This document shows positions 1 to 7,749 of a stretch of 64,000 nt of DNA, piece by piece (position 1 is the stretch's first letter; every line of letters starts with the position of its first letter). The position numbers were made by a program, and so were the translations under genes. Below the pieces are notes generated by a model. The model saw nothing but the letters and a program-made list of their open reading frames with translations, made no database searches and had not been told where the DNA came from. The stretch is from Reinekea blandensis MED297 (GTDB lineage: Bacteria > Pseudomonadota > Gammaproteobacteria > Pseudomonadales > Natronospirillaceae), in contig NZ_CH724149.1 of NCBI RefSeq assembly GCF_000153185.1, positions 124,001 to 188,000 of the forward strand, in the 5' to 3' direction.

Positions 1-326
1 GGTGTCAGCGAATCGAACTGGCCTTGATCTAACCCCTGAACAGCCCATTCAACGGCCATCGCATCCCAGGAAAAAGCCTGAGCTTGTCCGCGATAAAGAT
101 TCCGGCTGAACTGATCAATCACCAAAATGGCCGCGAGGCGGGCGTGGGGTGTGTTTGGCCAGTCGTCCGGATAACCCTGCGTGAGACGGGTATGTGTGTC
201 TTTAAACTGAGCGGCAATGGCCTGATCGGTTGCGTCCGACGCTTGAAACCAGCGTTTTTGCCGGGCTTTATCCGGCGGCGACTGGTCACCAAACCAAAAC
301 GCCAATACCTGTTGCCAATCGCTCAT
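1..326 (-). CDS. DUF924 family protein, 3' part missing
   Basis: The reverse strand is open from an ATG at 326 to the window edge, so 108 codons of the N-terminus are visible. The protein starts MSDWQQVLAFWFG, then has RWF near residue 25 and the stretch LAAILVIDQFSRNLYRG near residue 70. This is the pattern of the DUF924 family, helical soluble proteins of about 180 residues with no settled function. The start codon overlaps the stop of the upstream membrane-protein gene (ATGA, positions 323-326), so the two are probably translationally coupled. The family call is from remembered consensus; the C-terminal half lies outside the window. Confidence 0.8.
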   Translation of the reverse strand, partial: MSDWQQVLAFWFGDQSPPDKARQKRWFQASDATDQAIAAQFKDTHTRLTQGYPDDWPNTPHARLAAILVIDQFSRNLYRGQAQAFSWDAMAVEWAVQGLDQGQFDSLT

Positions 327-2215
327 GCCTGTTGCTCCATCTCATCAGCAAAGGTTTTTGGTTTGAGTATCTGGCCGGCGATAAACACCCAGTAGGTGCG
401 TGTTAAATCGAGGAAGTAAGCCTGATTTTGCAGAATGTCCTGAACGGACAGTTCGCTCAGAGGCGTTTCACCCAGTGCTGTCTGGATTTGGTCGGACAGC
501 TTTCCGCTGCCATTCGGCAACAAGGGTAAGGCCGGTAGCTTCTGAACTTGCCCGACCCACTTCTGGTGTTGTTTAAGAATCTGTTGGTCCCGACGTCGCT
601 GTTTATCCTGAGGAACCTTCTGGTCGTTGAGTCGCCACATTTGAATCTGTTGCAGGGTTTGAAATGCTGAAAAGGCGCCTTTGGCGATGCCCATGAGTTT
701 GTGTTGCAACGCATCTTCAGGCCACAACGCATTGGCCGTAGCCCGCCATTTGCTGATTTGAACGTTCACATCTTTAATTTTTTTCGGTTTGGCGTGCAAC
801 TCCAGCGACTGTTCAATCATCAACTGCTGAGTATGCAAGACGTCCTGTGCCTGGCGGTTCAGCAGCAACGCATTCGGTCGTTTTTTTCGGGGGCTGGCGT
901 CGGTTGGTGGTATCAGCGCTTCCGGACGAATCAGCTGATCGTTGAAGCGGTCAGCCAACGGAATGTATTTCTGGAAGGTCTGCCACAGGTGTTGGCCAGG
1001 CATGGTAAAGACCGCCTGTCCCTGCTGGCGGCTGATGGCTTTCTGATAGCCTTCGGTTGTCGACAGTGCCCACAGAGCGGGTGACTCAATACGGAACAGG
1101 GCATGAATCTCATCGTTTTCTTTGTCGGCCTGTGAATCCCGTACCACCAGCGATTGCCATTGCGTGCCGCGTAAACGCAGACGGTGGCAGTACTCGGTGA
1201 ACTCTGGCCAATCGCGTTCCAGTTCTGTGAAGCGTTTTTCAATACGTTGTAATCGTCGGCATTCCCCCATGCCGACCAGGTCTTTGGCAATGTTTTGCGC
1301 CCGCTGATTTTGATGCTCATACATAGGCAGCACCCAGTTGTTCAACAACAGGGCGGTCTTTTTATGCAGGGTACGCAGCGCGCGGTACCATTGAATGAAT
1401 AAACCCCACGTCAGCGCATAGAAGCGAGACGCCCGAGGCGTCATACGCATGGCCAGCAGACCGACAAACTGTTGCAAGGTCAGGGACTCCATTACCGGTA
1501 ACCCAACTTCCAGCGTACAGCTGTTTTTCAGCCATTGTTTGGGACTCTGGTGAACGTTCAAGACCGGGTCATTGACCAATATGATATCCGCGACCTTAGG
1601 CGCGGACAGGTAGTCAGCAAGGCTGTCGGTCAGTCGCCAAAGCAGTTCTTCGGTGTCTTTATCCACAGCGATACCATCGACCTGCGCAGGACGTGGCCGA
1701 AGGACAACGGCCGGGATAAAAAACAAACTGGCGATCAGTAATTGGATGAACGCCGCCACAAACTGGCTGCCCCAGATCGATAGGTTCAACAGCGGACTGA
1801 GAATGGCCAGGCCAATCAGTGGCAGTATAAAGTAGGTGCCGACCGCCATAGCCGCCAGGATAATCAGACTGAACTGAGTTTCCAGTTCATCGCTGGCGTG
1901 CCGGTATTTGCTCGCAAAGTATTGTTCGATCCCGCCATTGAGCAGGTGCTTGCGGACCTCTTCCGGACTGTTTTTCTGATTTACCGCTAACGCCTTGGCT
2001 TTGATAATCAGGCCGGCCTGGGTGAGTTCACGACCCAGCTTCTGGGCCGACTCTTTATTGAGATTTTCTTTTAATACAGTCCGGCGACCGGCCATCATGT
2101 CATTAATCTGACTGTCGTTCAGGGACAGCTGATCTTTCAGCGAAAAGCTGACGGCGGTTTTGTTGGCATCGGGTTTGAACCCTTCAAACACCAGGTGATA
2201 GCGCGCGTTTTCCAT
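323..2215 (-). CDS. Membrane protein with M48-peptidase-like domain, catalytic motif absent
   Basis: This 630-residue protein has three visible parts. Residues 1-75 resemble the small N-terminal domain (YHLVFEGF...GRRTVLKENL) found ahead of membrane segments in several bacterial protein families. Two hydrophobic segments follow at about 115-140 and 150-172. Residues 185-290 then read like the membrane-bound M48 metallopeptidases that carry a conserved 'GLPL..GLT...L..VLAHEFGH' core: here VGLPVMESLTLQQFVGLLA is kept, but the HExxH position reads MRMTP (about 256-260). No other HExxH is present. I infer a catalytically dead relative, perhaps a scaffold or regulator in the inner membrane. The C-terminal 300 residues are helical and charged, with no recognised domain. 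It is cotranscribed with the DUF924 gene by a 4-base overlap. Confidence 0.6.
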   Translation of the reverse strand: MENARYHLVFEGFKPDANKTAVSFSLKDQLSLNDSQINDMMAGRRTVLKENLNKESAQKLGRELTQAGLIIKAKALAVNQKNSPEEVRKHLLNGGIEQYFASKYRHASDELETQFSLIILAAMAVGTYFILPLIGLAILSPLLNLSIWGSQFVAAFIQLLIASLFFIPAVVLRPRPAQVDGIAVDKDTEELLWRLTDSLADYLSAPKVADIILVNDPVLNVHQSPKQWLKNSCTLEVGLPVMESLTLQQFVGLLAMRMTPRASRFYALTWGLFIQWYRALRTLHKKTALLLNNWVLPMYEHQNQRAQNIAKDLVGMGECRRLQRIEKRFTELERDWPEFTEYCHRLRLRGTQWQSLVVRDSQADKENDEIHALFRIESPALWALSTTEGYQKAISRQQGQAVFTMPGQHLWQTFQKYIPLADRFNDQLIRPEALIPPTDASPRKKRPNALLLNRQAQDVLHTQQLMIEQSLELHAKPKKIKDVNVQISKWRATANALWPEDALQHKLMGIAKGAFSAFQTLQQIQMWRLNDQKVPQDKQRRRDQQILKQHQKWVGQVQKLPALPLLPNGSGKLSDQIQTALGETPLSELSVQDILQNQAYFLDLTRTYWVFIAGQILKPKTFADEMEQQA

Positions 2216-2449: not shown

Positions 2450-3490
2450 ATGACTGAGTCTGTATCGGCACCGGAGCCTGAGATTTCCGGGTCGGTCACC
2501 GCCCCCCGCACCGCCTGGTTCGATTTCTTACTTTTGTTGCTCACCTTAGGCCTTTATACGCCGTTTCTGTTGGTGTCACAGATCCGTGATCTGAAAAAGC
2601 TCTACCAGAGTCAACGTAAGCCATGGCTATGGTTTTTTGTTCCGTTATTTTTACCGGCGCAACTGTTCGCACTACCGTCTCTGCATCGTGAACTCACCGG
2701 GTATGAGCAGCGAATGGGGTTAACGTTGCAGAACTGGATCGCGGTTCTGTGGATCATCGCGGTGGTGTTATTGACCCTGTTGTCCTCCGTCATCAACCGA
2801 AGTGAGACGGTGGCCGAGTTCTGGCTGTTTCCTATCCTGGCGCTGCTGGCCGGTTTATACAGTCTGCTGGCATGGCGCATTCACCGAATTAAACGGGTCG
2901 ATACCCGCTTGCACGAGCAGCCCAGGCAACCGGCGACTCATTGGTGGGAGTGGGTCGTGGCGATCATGGGCTTTCTGTTGACGATTGTGTTGGCCGCATT
3001 GATGGTGTTTGAGTCCATGATGGAGGACGTGTTGGCCCGGCATGTTGATGTCCCGGCTTTTACCGTCGAAGGCACCGGGCTTACCTGGCCGATTCAACGC
3101 GTGCCCTGGCTGGAGATAGAGACCCCGGAAGATCCGGATGATCTGGTGACACTGCGCGGTGTGAACAGGGGGTTCATCGTTAACGTGTATCAATATTCCA
3201 ACCAGTCCGTAAACGAGGTGTTGGCGTCCCGACACATTCAGGCCATGAACATCGACGACGGCATGGTCTGTTCCGAACATCAAACCTTTGAACCGGGTTC
3301 ATTAAACGTGAAAGCGGTTCAGGAATGCATTACATCCATTGACTTTGGTACCGATGCTCAGTTCTCGGCGGTATTGGAACGAGATGGAACCGTTTATGAA
3401 CTCTATGCCCTCGTTGCCACGCCGGAATCGGAAGACGGAGGCATCATGACCAGTATCCGGGCCGCCATAGAAGGATTCTCCCTCCAATGA
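2450..3490 (+). CDS. Multi-pass membrane protein of unknown function
   Basis: A 346-residue protein with four to five hydrophobic segments at about 23-42, 62-76, 95-115, 123-142 and 165-190, followed by a soluble C-terminal domain of about 150 residues, probably periplasmic. The first segment context (TLGLYTPFLLVSQIRDLKKL) resembles small DUF4234-like membrane modules, but I do not recognise the whole protein. An AGGGA lies 12 bases ahead of the ATG. Its stop overlaps the start of the transglutaminase-like gene (ATGA), so the two form an operon and may act together at the envelope. Confidence 0.6.
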   Translation: MTESVSAPEPEISGSVTAPRTAWFDFLLLLLTLGLYTPFLLVSQIRDLKKLYQSQRKPWLWFFVPLFLPAQLFALPSLHRELTGYEQRMGLTLQNWIAVLWIIAVVLLTLLSSVINRSETVAEFWLFPILALLAGLYSLLAWRIHRIKRVDTRLHEQPRQPATHWWEWVVAIMGFLLTIVLAALMVFESMMEDVLARHVDVPAFTVEGTGLTWPIQRVPWLEIETPEDPDDLVTLRGVNRGFIVNVYQYSNQSVNEVLASRHIQAMNIDDGMVCSEHQTFEPGSLNVKAVQECITSIDFGTDAQFSAVLERDGTVYELYALVATPESEDGGIMTSIRAAIEGFSLQ

Positions 3491-5400
3491 ACAGAATAAT
3501 GTTTGCCCTGCTGTGCGTATGGCTCATGCCCGCGAACGGATGGGCGTCAGTCGTTTTTCCAATGGACAGCGATGCGTTGATCGCGCGGGCAAAGCTCGAT
3601 CAGCAGGAACAGGTCGCCGGCTATGATGAAGTGACGAATGTCTTGCGGCGAATCGTCGTCGATGTTGATGGGAACAAGGTGACTCGCCGTATTCAGGCAC
3701 TCTGGTTCTATCCCGATACCTCATCGGTGGAAGAATATGGCACGGAATCGATTTACTTTGATGATGTCAGTGAATCGGTCCGGGTCCACACCGCGGCGAC
3801 TTTATCACCCGATGGCACCGTCAGTCAGTTTGACCCCGCCAATGCTCAATACGGCGACAGCGATCAATACAATACCTTCAGCAACGGCCGGGTTCTGTAT
3901 TTGGCGTTGCCGGGGATGCAGGCCAATGGCTATACGGTGCTGGACTACGAAATTACCTCAGATCTTAAGCTTACAGAGACGCCCTTTGCGGACCATATAA
4001 GAGCGGAAAGTCTGTTTCCGTTGCGACAGTTCGAACTGATTGTTCGCGCACCCACGGTCACGCTGAACTGGGATAATTCACATCCTGCCGTTTACTGTGA
4101 GTCACTGGCCCATGAGACCCGCTGCTCAGGGCAAGACATTCCCGCCTTGCAGTTTGACAGCACGACCTACTGGCGAGATAAGTTACGAGGGGTCAGTTTT
4201 GCCGTTAATCTGGATTGGAGCGAGCTGGCCGCGCATGCATTAACCCTGTATCAGAATGCGTTCACTGAGCAGTCTGAAGTCGAGTCGTTGTATCAGCGAC
4301 TTGTTGACGGTATCGACTCCAAAGCTCAGCGCATCGAAGCGCTGTTTCGGTTTGTCGCTGAAGACATCCGCTATGTGTCTCTTTCGACAGAAGGGCATAC
4401 GCATACGCCCCATACCAATGATTCGGTGATCCGGAACCGATACGGCGATTGCAAAGATAAAACGGCACTGCTTCAGGCTTTGCTGGCGCTCGAAGGGGTG
4501 GAGGCGACGCCGGTGCTGGTATCGACCAATCGAACAGATCCTGATCGCTTAGTTTTGCCGAGCCTGAATTACTTTAATCACATCGTATTGTGCTTGGCGT
4601 ATCAGGGGCAGCGATACTGTCTGGACCCAACGGACAGCACTGTTCATTGGCAGAGCACATCCAACTGGATACAGGGTAAAGTGGCCTTGCCACTGACATC
4701 CACGACCAAACCAGAACAGATACCCGCCGAGAAACACCGCTGGACCATGGATATCCTTTCAGAACTGGTGTTTACCGAGGCCGGCGGCCTTCACGAAGTG
4801 CAAACGCGAACCTATTCGGATGCCTTTGCCGCCTATATGCGCGAGCAGTTACGAGGCTCGGATACCGATGAGCAACAGCAAATGCTGGTTCGACAATATC
4901 AGCAGGTGGTTGCCGATACGGACAATGTGAGTGCCATGGCTCTGGCTGGGACCCAGCGGGAAGATGATTACCGACAACTGCAGGTGCGTACCGAGGCCAA
5001 CTACAGTGCGTTTGCGACCACGGACAATCATCTGCGGTATACCGAAGACGATGCCTGGTTGGTTGACGATCTTCAATCCAGCTACCTGGACAATGAGTAT
5101 GACGCCGTCACCTTGGATGGCGTTCGCTATCGCAGTCGATATAACGTGGATGTGACTGCGCATTGGCGGGTCATGAGTCCCGCTCCGACTGTGGAACTGG
5201 TGCATCGGTTCGGTTCATTTAAGCGGGTGAGCAAAATACTCAATGATGGCCGGCTGTCGATCGAGACAATCCTGGAGATACCGCATCAGACGATCGGCTT
5301 AACTGAACAGGATGAGTTCAATCAGCTGTTGGATCGCTTTCTGGCTCTGCAGACCATTCGTATTGAAGCGCCTTTCAGCGCTGACAGCGCCAACCCCTAG
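3487..5400 (+). CDS. DUF3857 / transglutaminase-like periplasmic protein
   Basis: 637 residues beginning with a signal peptide (cleavage likely after NGWA near residue 20). Residues 50-220 fit DUF3857, a beta-rich domain; residues about 270-400 fit the transglutaminase-like cysteine fold, with the catalytic Cys in RYGDCKDKTALL, the His in NHIVL and the Asp in CLDPTDS, so the triad is intact. The C-terminal 200 residues are beta-rich like other members. Such proteins are exported and presumed to act on peptides or cross-links at the envelope; no substrate is established. It overlaps the upstream membrane protein gene by 4 bases and is followed by a two-way terminator. Confidence 0.8.
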   Translation: MNRIMFALLCVWLMPANGWASVVFPMDSDALIARAKLDQQEQVAGYDEVTNVLRRIVVDVDGNKVTRRIQALWFYPDTSSVEEYGTESIYFDDVSESVRVHTAATLSPDGTVSQFDPANAQYGDSDQYNTFSNGRVLYLALPGMQANGYTVLDYEITSDLKLTETPFADHIRAESLFPLRQFELIVRAPTVTLNWDNSHPAVYCESLAHETRCSGQDIPALQFDSTTYWRDKLRGVSFAVNLDWSELAAHALTLYQNAFTEQSEVESLYQRLVDGIDSKAQRIEALFRFVAEDIRYVSLSTEGHTHTPHTNDSVIRNRYGDCKDKTALLQALLALEGVEATPVLVSTNRTDPDRLVLPSLNYFNHIVLCLAYQGQRYCLDPTDSTVHWQSTSNWIQGKVALPLTSTTKPEQIPAEKHRWTMDILSELVFTEAGGLHEVQTRTYSDAFAAYMREQLRGSDTDEQQQMLVRQYQQVVADTDNVSAMALAGTQREDDYRQLQVRTEANYSAFATTDNHLRYTEDDAWLVDDLQSSYLDNEYDAVTLDGVRYRSRYNVDVTAHWRVMSPAPTVELVHRFGSFKRVSKILNDGRLSIETILEIPHQTIGLTEQDEFNQLLDRFLALQTIRIEAPFSADSANP

Positions 5401-5414
5401 TTCTCCAAAAGCAC

Positions 5415-5444
5415 AAAAAAAAGCGCAGTCGGTGCTGCGCTTTT
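5415..5444 (-). terminator. Bidirectional intrinsic terminator
   Basis: A perfect 10-bp stem (5419-5428 with 5435-5444, AAAAGCGCAG on the plus strand) closes a 6-base loop. On the minus strand it is followed by an eight-base T tract, serving the gene ending at 5493; on the plus strand only four T follow, a weaker stop for the transglutaminase-like gene. Confidence 0.85.
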
Positions 5445-5492
5445 CAGGGGATTGGTTACCGATAGTTCGAGCTTGTGCTCGATGTTCGGCAC

Positions 5493-6083
5493 TCAGATCC
5501 GGTAATCTTCGCCGTCTTTGCCGGTGAAGCTCTTTGCTTTCTCGATGCATTTACAGATGCGCTTGCCGGCTTTGGTGGTGGTGATTTCACTGTCACCGCG
5601 GACCATGCTGAACCAGTGCGTTCGGCTTGGTTCGTCATTAGCGGCAATGGTCACGTCACCCATATCCATAGCCTTGGTTTCAACCTGAATGTCGTCGACA
5701 CAGGCGGCGTCGCGACGGCCACGCTTACCATTCGGGTTGAAGATGATTTCAACGTGGTAGCCTTCATCATTCTTCAGCACCACTGAGGTCGGATCTTCTT
5801 TATGGCCGCTCAGTGCGACAAACTGCTTCGGTGACTTCAGACCCGCCTGTGTGCCATCTTCAAAGAAGGCCAGCAGGTGCTGGTAGTAGACGACATAGTT
5901 GCGCACGTCTTTGTGTGATCCTTTTGACAGCGGGAAAACCTTGTCCAGGAACTGTTTGCTGTAGTCCATCATTTGCTGAATGCGCGCATCGTTGAGCGAG
6001 CTGATCAGCGTGACTTCTTCTTTGATGAAGCTTTCAAATCCATGATCGATTTGCGGGTGTGGTTGGGCAGTCATCGTTTTCAC
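5493..6083 (-). CDS. Truncated malate synthase G-like protein lacking catalytic residues
   Basis: A 196-residue protein that aligns by eye with part of malate synthase G. FESFIKEEV (16-24) matches the MSG N-terminus; FLDKVFPLSKGSHKDV (45-60), SPKQFVALSG (84-93), PTSVVLKN (98-105), GYHVEI (108-113) and DAACVDDIQVE (125-135) match the beta-rich insert region of E. coli GlcB; DMGDVTIAANDE (140-151) matches the DCEDSVAAVDAED segment, with the acidic E replaced by G. The rest of the TIM barrel, including positions equivalent to Arg338, Glu427, Asp455 and Asp631, is absent. The frame is intact, has its own terminator and diverges from a DUF3612 regulator. It may be a remnant under selection or a binding or regulatory protein; enzyme activity is unlikely. 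Confidence 0.65.
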   Translation of the reverse strand: MKTMTAQPHPQIDHGFESFIKEEVTLISSLNDARIQQMMDYSKQFLDKVFPLSKGSHKDVRNYVVYYQHLLAFFEDGTQAGLKSPKQFVALSGHKEDPTSVVLKNDEGYHVEIIFNPNGKRGRRDAACVDDIQVETKAMDMGDVTIAANDEPSRTHWFSMVRGDSEITTTKAGKRICKCIEKAKSFTGKDGEDYRI

Positions 6084-6189
6084 TCTCTTCGTCAGTTCGG
6101 GTTACGCTCAGCTTATGTCACCGTGTTTTCGTTGTTCTCGGCTGTGCTGCATGGCATGAGTGGAACTATAGGGTAAAAAACAATACAAT

Positions 6190-6216
6190 TTCACAAATAA
6201 AATTTCACAATGTGAA
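6190..6216. promoter_or_regulatory. Candidate operator between malate-synthase-like gene and DUF3612 regulator
   Basis: A 13-base palindrome TTCACAATGTGAA at 6204-6216 has a third half-site, TTCACAA, at 6190-6196, 14 bases upstream. It ends 9 bases before the start codon of the XRE-type regulator, which lacks a good Shine-Dalgarno. I infer autoregulation and possibly control of the divergent gene. Confidence 0.55.
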
Positions 6217-6225
6217 TTTTACAAA

Positions 6226-7749
6226 ATGAAAGCCAGTAAAAGCCTGATCCGCCAGTCGCATTTTCTCGGTACCAAGATCCGGAACCTGCGTAAACAGAAC
6301 AATCTGACCATGGAAGACCTGTCAGCACGCTGTATTCGCGTCGACCCGGATTCCGCCCCCAGTGTCAGCTACCTTTCCATGATTGAACGCGGTAAGCGCA
6401 CGCCCAGCCTGGACATGCTCGAAGTCATCGCGGCGGTGTTCCAGAAGGACGCTGACTGGTTTCTGGACGATGAGCCGCAGGCTGAGGCCATCGCCCCGGT
6501 GAAAAGTGAAACCAAGGGCGGCATTCCCGGCATGCCGCTGGAACCGAGCTTTCTGTTCTCCAATGACATCCTGCAGATCGCCATCCCGGAACTGCTCTCT
6601 CAGGCTGGCGTTTCCGGCCGACAGTTCGCTCATTTGCTGATTCGGGCCTATCAGGAACATCATCAGAACCACTTCCCCGACCTGGAACGTGCCGCTGAAG
6701 AGGTCGGACAGAAGCGCATGCCGTTGTCGGTCGAAGATCTGACGGCGTTGCTGAAAAAACAGGGCTTGGGTGTCCGCTGGTTCCGTCAGCCACCGAAGGG
6801 TGTCATCGATGAGCTGGGGGTGTATTCGAAAAACATCATTTCATCCTACCTGGAAGACGGTGTCTTGTTCTTAAACGAGACGCTGAAAGACTTCCCGACC
6901 CGCCTGAAGTACGAAATGGCCGTGCACATCGGACATTGTGTGCTGCATACCAAGGACGGCTATCAAACGGTTAAGGCGGTCGGTGGCAGTCACGGCGGTA
7001 AGTTCAATAAGGCTGGCGACATTAATACGGCTTCTACCATGGTCAATGCGAAGAACATCCTGCGGGCTTGGCGCTCATTTGAGTCCAGTTTTTTTGCCGG
7101 CGCGTTGTTGTGTCCACGGGTGCCGTTCCGCCAGTTGCTAGACAGGATGGGGTATGAAATTGACGTGCATAAGCAGGTGGGCGTCTCTGCCTCGGTGGCG
7201 ATGCGCCGTATGACGGCGGTCTCGCCCTACTCGCACTGGCATTATTTTGATGCCTATTCGCCCGGCAAGCTGAAGGCGGTTTACCGCGGGAACGGGATTC
7301 CTTTGCCCTGGGGGAACCTCAGTGCGGTCGATGACCCCTGTCCACAATGGGCGGTGTTCCGGAAAATCAACGAAGAGGTTAACGTCTCATCGGCCCAGAT
7401 TTCGATTCTGGATACGGTGACCGGTCCGCGCATCTATTGTTGTGAGTCCATTAAGGTCAACGACATGGCCGGCAACGGTCACGTTCTGACCGCCGGGATC
7501 GACCTGAACCCGGCGCTGGAAACCAAAGGCAACAACGCGGAAGAGATGGCGCAGACCCTGAAAGATGCCTGTGTCAGTAAAGGCGGGGTCGCGACGATCC
7601 CGAAAAACATCCGCACGGAACTGTCCAGTGTGTCGCGGATCCTCAACATTAACTGGATTGATCGGGGGGCACAGGAACCGGCTCAGCTGATCTGTTCAAA
7701 AAGCGCGAACTGTCCTCGCACTCCCTGTTGCTATGGGAACCGGGGCTGA
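6226..7749 (+). CDS. XRE-family transcriptional regulator with DUF3612 domain
   Basis: 507 residues. An XRE helix-turn-helix occupies about 10-75 (LGTKIRNLRKQNNLTMEDLSARC, split by the family insertion before PSVSYLSMIERGKRTPSLDML). The remainder matches the DUF3612 family as I remember it from Vibrio, including EPSFLFSNDILQIAIPELL, LKYEMAVHIGHCVLH, WHYFDAYSPGKLKAVYRG and the Cys-rich tail CPRTPCCY. It is related to the ScfR-type regulators (RamB, PrpC-like) of acetate, propionate and glyoxylate metabolism, which bind acyl-CoA-like ligands. The Cys pairs at the C-terminus could hold a metal. Its position opposite a malate-synthase-like gene supports a role in the glyoxylate shunt. The ATG has no clear ribosome-binding site; the start follows family length. 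Confidence 0.8.
   Translation: MKASKSLIRQSHFLGTKIRNLRKQNNLTMEDLSARCIRVDPDSAPSVSYLSMIERGKRTPSLDMLEVIAAVFQKDADWFLDDEPQAEAIAPVKSETKGGIPGMPLEPSFLFSNDILQIAIPELLSQAGVSGRQFAHLLIRAYQEHHQNHFPDLERAAEEVGQKRMPLSVEDLTALLKKQGLGVRWFRQPPKGVIDELGVYSKNIISSYLEDGVLFLNETLKDFPTRLKYEMAVHIGHCVLHTKDGYQTVKAVGGSHGGKFNKAGDINTASTMVNAKNILRAWRSFESSFFAGALLCPRVPFRQLLDRMGYEIDVHKQVGVSASVAMRRMTAVSPYSHWHYFDAYSPGKLKAVYRGNGIPLPWGNLSAVDDPCPQWAVFRKINEEVNVSSAQISILDTVTGPRIYCCESIKVNDMAGNGHVLTAGIDLNPALETKGNNAEEMAQTLKDACVSKGGVATIPKNIRTELSSVSRILNINWIDRGAQEPAQLICSKSANCPRTPCCYGNRG

Follow-up and report, generated by a model that had tools for sequence, protein, structure and literature searches.

A free-standing malate synthase G domain beside a DUF3612 regulator in Reinekea blandensis: a possible non-catalytic docking protein of the glyoxylate shunt

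The 64,000-nucleotide stretch of the Reinekea blandensis MED297 genome analysed here (contig NZ_CH724149.1, positions 124,001 to 188,000; hereafter the window) encodes a short protein corresponding to domain III of malate synthase G (MSG), next to a divergently oriented gene for a DUF3612 regulator. Judged by sequence comparison, this fragment originates from the kind of MSG that relatives carry in the same slot, has lost catalysis, is held by purifying selection, shares an operator with the regulator and recurs in several bacterial families. We propose, with a probability of about 0.4, that it is a docking protein without catalytic function, belongs to the DUF3612 regulon and tunes the glyoxylate shunt, and we infer that its partner is isocitrate lyase (ICL), full MSG or the regulator. 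The features of the locus, in positions of the window, are as follows.

5493..6074, minus strand: gene for the stand-alone MSG domain-III protein, 193 aa from its probable start; N-terminal helix, domain III and first barrel strand
5418..5445, minus strand: terminator-like hairpin followed by T residues, located downstream of the fragment gene and close to position 5400, where the convergent gene ends
6165..6194, minus strand: weak sigma-70-like promoter match (9/12) toward the fragment gene, overlapping the operator
6183..6226, plus strand: operator of 44 bp, the final base of which is the first base of the regulator ATG; core TTTCACAATGTGAATTTTAC at 6203-6222
6226..7749, plus strand: divergent DUF3612 regulator, 507 aa, with helix-turn-helix, IrrE/M78-like domain and DUF3612

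The initial annotation had read this frame as a stand-alone piece of MSG without catalytic residues, and the Pfam and structure searches that it called for bear this out. Pfam MSG_insertion (PF20658) matches residues 31-105 with an E-value of 1.3e-21, NCBIfam PRK08951 (NF006511) matches with 194.8 bits (E 1.3e-57; cut-off 173 bits), and MSG chains from the PDB align with the fragment across MSG residues about 147-331, the matches ending near MSG residue 329-333. In an AlphaFold model of the fragment the block-mean pLDDT is 93-98 across residues 41-130, and the best 50 PDB matches listed by Foldseek were all MSG (top E 1.1e-12); because MSG segments were present in the alignment from which the model was predicted, this fold match is a consistency check. 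By sequence and by predicted fold alike the protein contains domain III, and the PF20658, PRK08951, PDB and fold matches rule out both a chance ORF and an unrelated fold. The N-terminal helix, which had been recognised by eye, derives from MSG as well: when residues 4-33 of the fragment were compared with the N-terminal ends of full MSGs linked to DUF3612 (13 of the 23), only 2 of 2000 shuffles scored as well. The frame proposed at 5493-6083 on the minus strand is intact and yields 196 aa from GTG 6083 or 193 aa from ATG 6074. Its length is the part of the proposal that changes, as translation probably starts at ATG 6074, which we favour because GTG 6083 overlaps a purine-rich stretch and the orthologues have a matching ATG.

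The fragment possesses no MSG catalytic residue, and the catalytic barrel and C-terminal domain required of an MSG enzyme were not found in it. In the first barrel strand, the MDCED of a full MSG (L035) is replaced by MDMGD, as had been noted. According to the structural reports, the Mg-binding residues of GlcB, Glu434 and Asp462 (PMC5207166), and the catalytic Asp631 of E. coli MSG (PMC3832036) map past the fragment's end on MSG. An enzyme in its own right is thus excluded, since the catalytic part is gone, and automatic annotation as “malate synthase” misnames the protein. PRK08951, a model of 190 aa, carries that enzyme name; the fragment exceeds its cut-off and falls into the same length class, yet lacks catalytic residues, and hence short proteins of this type are already catalogued, under an enzyme name. 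Our literature search found no paper naming PRK08951, PF20658, MSG_insertion or NF006511 and none joining Reinekea with malate synthase, and none was recognised as describing such a protein.

A complete MSG, a 746-aa frame on contig C6, is indeed present elsewhere in the genome, as the initial annotation had advised to check. It lies near ICL and divergent from it, with a gene that looks LysR-like by eye between them (C6, 450000-461000), suggesting that the shunt genes of this genome switched regulator. Identity of the fragment to this MSG is 31%, and it is 31-36% to the full MSGs of f223/g321 and 41-46% to those of Marinomonas-like genomes (f207) and of f197, in which the gene order is DUF3612, divergent MSG, ICL. 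The fragment is therefore best read, on sequence identity and gene order, as the remainder of an MSG that once occupied the slot beside DUF3612. Full malate synthases in relatives had been held in advance to speak against a retained role; they do occur, but only outside the genus, in Marinomonas-like genomes and in the same slot, so they reveal the origin of the fragment and do not refute its retention. Several independent origins of such fragments are suggested by a tree of the 120-column core, on which the fragment label takes four changes, two of them forced by starred branches; a single origin was not rejected by the AU test (p 0.178 for all sequences, 0.342 without L114 and L106, 0.324 without L114). 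Genome G167 carries a diverged 196-aa fragment (L114:3051-3638, minus strand) with an operator directly upstream. It groups with the MSG of its own genome (SH-aLRT 92) on a long branch and possibly arose independently.

Adjacency of the regulator family to glyoxylate-shunt genes, stated in the initial annotation, was recovered across the surveyed neighbourhoods. Among 79 distinct DUF3612 neighbourhoods including the window, 36 have a reduced divergent MSG, 23 a full MSG and 12 ICL directly; one has a malate synthase matching MSG weakly (probably type A), four have none of these and three are cut by a contig end. Two loci had been dropped before counting (L034, the same record as L112, and L115, a near-copy of L098), and G354 was left out because of a contig end. 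Stop to stop, the reduced frames measure 99-476 aa, and the part retained in all 35 aligned reduced MSGs is domain III. Ten derivatives of 373-476 aa in f148 (L160-L162, L164, L169, L175-L177, L181, L187) have eroded barrels without the catalytic stretches of the full enzyme, nine of them with ICL next, and look like intermediate stages of reduction.

Six of the seven genus members have the short form, whereas the 15 other genomes of the family all lack it; the remaining genus member, G380, gave no match to DUF3612 or to the queries that find full MSGs elsewhere. The gene pair is thus kept within the genus, and it recurs in other families, by which a genus-only curiosity is rejected. In overlapping genome samples, DUF3612 was detected in 34 of the 390 genomes from the order (33 above cut-off) and in 6 of the 369 from the class; the order of G258 gave 37 of 48, the family of G464 13 of 99 and the family of G460 1 of 61. 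All 39 genomes with a stand-alone fragment have DUF3612, most of these fragments having been found by looking beside DUF3612. Searches made independently of DUF3612 agree: in the class sample, a short frame is present in 3 of the 6 genomes that have DUF3612 vs 0 of the 363 that lack it (Fisher 2.4e-6, uncorrected for kinship), and in f148 in 24 of 37 vs 0 of 10 tested among the 11 without (Fisher 2.2e-4, likewise uncorrected). Across the 369 class genomes only the window exceeded the NF006511 cut-off; this model has too little reach for short forms that have diverged, and short frames were therefore possibly missed in that sample. Of the 39 fragment genomes, 36 have a further MSG frame of 500 aa or longer (exceptions: G791, 68% complete; G773, a contig-end piece; G881, cut and interrupted), so catalysis does not need the fragment.

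Upstream of DUF3612 genes we found a conserved 44-bp site, nTAnAATTTCACAATAAAAATTnCACAnTGTnAATTTTACAAAA (68 of 77 aligned). Using a matrix built from most of the scored sites themselves and a threshold score of 25, the operator was detected in 35/35 reduced-MSG loci besides the window, 23/23 full-MSG loci, 12/12 loci with ICL directly and the single locus with a weakly matching malate synthase; 3/4 of the other DUF3612 loci and 2/3 of those cut by a contig end remained below 25. Three DUF3612 loci (L184, L189, L192) have neither operator nor ICL nor fragment nearby, and their regulator may have changed its role. Among 300 random segments of 500 bases drawn from these loci, 13 scored at least 25, all of them covering this intergenic site, and those not covering it reached 13.6 at most. 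Six fragments that lie away from DUF3612 and were outside the matrix are also preceded by the operator: five are located directly before ICL (scores 26.9-44.5), and the sixth is the G167 fragment of a different family, on a contig other than its DUF3612 (41.3). In the window genome the core pattern has one exact match, at 6203-6222; allowing two mismatches gave five matches, one overlapping the same site and four elsewhere (control: two). The only visible targets of the operator are therefore the regulator and the fragment gene. No convincing copy was found at the ICL loci of the six Reinekea genomes, the best score being 17.6, in the window genome only (L116); this possible degenerate operator has no counterpart in the five other genomes. 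The terminator ascribed to the fragment gene corresponds to the hairpin at 5445-5418, in a search that returned four terminator-like matches in 921 scanned bases against 1.6 expected, and for the sigma-70-like match toward the fragment one was found against 0.6 expected.

Where DUF3612 and ICL are separated, the fragment was found with either or both. In G776, G798, G799 and G800 a fragment but no ICL lies at the DUF3612 locus, and ICL elsewhere has a fragment of its own directly upstream together with an operator copy. In G788 the fragment lies beside ICL near a contig end, away from DUF3612, while in the six Reinekea genomes and in G460 (ICL not located) it accompanies DUF3612 only. No stand-alone fragment was detected in G781, G779 and G780, which have DUF3612 without ICL nearby, or anywhere in 11 of the 12 genomes in which DUF3612 directly faces ICL. 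The fragment can therefore follow the regulator, ICL or both, and it can be lost.

Constraint on the fragment was measured by dN/dS (NG86). The nearest pair, the window and G379, gave 0.074 at a dS of 1.63, pairs within g338 gave 0.051-0.149, and the 60 most similar pairs ranged from 0.05 to 0.38 where estimable, with one near-identical pair at 0; synonymous sites are saturated in many of these pairs. Purifying selection rather than neutrality is evident from these sequence comparisons, in keeping with the earlier argument, to which the six of seven genus genomes also speak, that a neutral remnant would have decayed. The reduced MSG pieces evolve faster than the adjacent DUF3612 (74% vs 98% identity for L182/L183). 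Overall, retention of the fragment and its co-regulation with DUF3612 are well supported at the sequence level.

A candidate for a contact site is a beta-hairpin of domain III. In all 35 fragments next to DUF3612, G[ST]H...Y is followed by [YH][FY]xx[LMVA]; the window has VVYY at residues 64-67. Among full MSGs linked to DUF3612, YY is present in 17 of 23, the six without it all belonging to g321. None of 36 unlinked MSGs has the aromatic pair, and many of them show a simple turn there, for example DG or NG; of 48 candidate unlinked loci 12 had been dropped, for want of a usable long frame or profile match or, for L026, because the genome has DUF3612. The MSG of the window genome itself (L002) is among the dropped loci, and its hairpin lacks the pair; the pair is likewise missing from the G167 fragment. 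The fragment model places it at the end of strand 60-66 and in the turn preceding strand 69-74, where it may form an exposed contact. A contrast test for positions changing along with the aromatic-pair domain (three contrasts) gave best scores of 0.43 for DUF3612 and 0.38 for ICL, and none of 60 label shuffles reached either score. As both signals are weak and similar and the shuffles ignore kinship, neither partner is singled out.

Assignment of the divergent regulator to DUF3612, made by eye in the initial annotation, is confirmed by PF12268 (E 1.4e-86). A sequence profile of DUF3612 run against the PDB returned helix-turn-helix proteins only. For the predicted DUF3612 model (pLDDT 78.8), the best solved matches are the Mycobacterium tuberculosis PrpR chains 6cz6, 6d2s, 6cyj and 6cyy, with E about 1e-10 and TM-scores of 0.56-0.72 by target length and 0.38-0.41 by query length; the model thus has a PrpR-like fold following the helix-turn-helix. 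Cysteines 36, 372, 406, 490, 496 and 502 are invariant in 45 aligned sequences. The last three are spaced CX5CX5C, and the iron-sulphur motif CX2CX4C was not found; C406 is a candidate fourth cluster ligand. PrpR is described as a CoA-binding protein that also holds a 4Fe4S cluster by means of a cysteine of its GAF-like domain together with CX2CX4C (PMC6765138), and Paracoccus RamB, which binds CoA esters and has two boxes as its recognition site, as a regulator of the glyoxylate cycle (PMC10370305). Like these ScfR/IsaR regulators, the DUF3612 protein combines a helix-turn-helix with an IrrE-like domain, has PrpR as best fold match, is tied to ICL and MSG genes and has similarly placed invariant cysteines. 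It differs from them in its C-terminal DUF3612 domain, in CX5CX5C instead of CX2CX4C, in an operator unlike theirs and in an identity of 15-17% in structural alignments. From these features we infer that DUF3612 is an acyl-CoA/iron-sulphur regulator of the glyoxylate shunt. No paper on DUF3612 was found in our literature search, and the present data assign to it an operator, a regulon and, probably, the role of an acyl-CoA regulator.

On our reading of the fragment as a docking protein, the regulator would sense acyl-CoA through its PrpR/RamB-like fold with an iron-sulphur cluster and switch the divergent promoter, and in the window genome the fragment would carry its output. The fragment is the likeliest carrier because the operator core has no other exact match and ICL and full MSG lie elsewhere without an operator; an effect on a shunt enzyme is therefore ranked first and feedback on DUF3612 second. 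The protein would act post-translationally, on ICL in the first place and on full MSG in the second, and would dock by the beta-hairpin with the aromatic pair at its tip. Several observations weigh against this. DUF3612 faces ICL in 12 loci without any adjacent MSG piece, G781, G779 and G780 have the regulator with neither a nearby ICL nor a fragment, and in Reinekea and G460 the fragment is unlinked to ICL. The pair is missing from six linked full MSGs and the G167 fragment, the reduced pieces change faster than DUF3612, the contrast scores are weak and alike for ICL and DUF3612, and the regulator could have weaker sites missed by the operator pattern. A rival idea is that the domain binds DUF3612 itself, initially within MSG, which would then be a trigger enzyme, and after its release as a separate protein feeding back on the shared promoter. 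We consider this co-regulator a possible though doubtful explanation. It agrees with the presence of DUF3612 in all 39 fragment genomes, with the class-sample and f148 searches, with a Reinekea pair that stays together away from ICL and with the lack of the aromatic pair in the 36 unlinked MSGs. However, the G788 fragment accompanies ICL apart from DUF3612, a pure feedback loop would leave Reinekea without a visible output, the 12 ICL-direct loci have no such neighbour, and the matching change in DUF3612 is weak.

Decay of an MSG made redundant by a second copy, with function gone, is a much less probable account. Most of the enzyme is missing, a long or full MSG exists elsewhere in 36/39 genomes, frame lengths vary from 99 to 476 aa and the pieces evolve faster than the regulator, all as expected of a remnant; but the frames are open, domain III is kept in every aligned reduced form, there are invariant positions, dN/dS is low in the listed estimable pairs, the operator is kept, and four genomes hold two fragment copies. 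MSG uses both acetyl-CoA and glyoxylate, and as a descendant of MSG the fragment had been suggested to sense one of these ligands. This is the least probable of the readings weighed here and finds no support, because the active site of published MSG structures (PMC5207166) is formed at the interface of barrel and domain II, of which the fragment keeps the first barrel strand only. If anything, acyl-CoA sensing would belong to the regulator, whose model matches PrpR. Binding of a partner, the other role that had been suggested, is the plausible one.

We know of no established purpose of MSG domain III. The inserted domain is what distinguishes MSG in size (PMC5207166, PMC3832036, PMC3112382). 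The fragment is the same domain by profile (PF20658) and predicted fold but free-standing, and its hairpin tip bears the aromatic pair which the 36 unlinked MSGs lack. It represents a natural dissection of MSG: in several bacterial families the enzyme was removed and a single domain stayed under a single regulator, which makes it possible to test what domain III does. The same lone-domain arrangement in other bacteria suggests that domain III has a control job of its own. A wider and tentative extension, which we think rather unlikely as a whole, is that domain III in DUF3612-linked MSGs is a docking module tying shunt enzymes to an acyl-CoA/iron-sulphur regulator, and that several lineages freed it as a stand-alone control protein; in the window species, whose genome has one exact operator match, it would be the sole visible output of the regulator. 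How an enzyme piece of this sort can work is illustrated by AcnSP, a plasmid-borne, biochemically tested aconitase-like small protein of 44 aa from Synechocystis that modulates aconitase (PMC7336809). Both are pieces of a central-metabolism enzyme kept as genes of their own; unlike AcnSP as portrayed there, the fragment is a whole domain within a regulon and is known here from its sequence.

Two neighbourhoods deserve mention in their own right. In G881 (L198), ICL is spread over two frames and the MSG match in that region contains stops; the frames of a 108-aa fragment and of DUF3612 are open. In the window, a 630-aa ORF of unknown function (323-2215, minus strand) is separated from the fragment by the genes at 2450-3490 and 3487-5400, and the other five genus members with a fragment likewise have this ORF on the far side of it.
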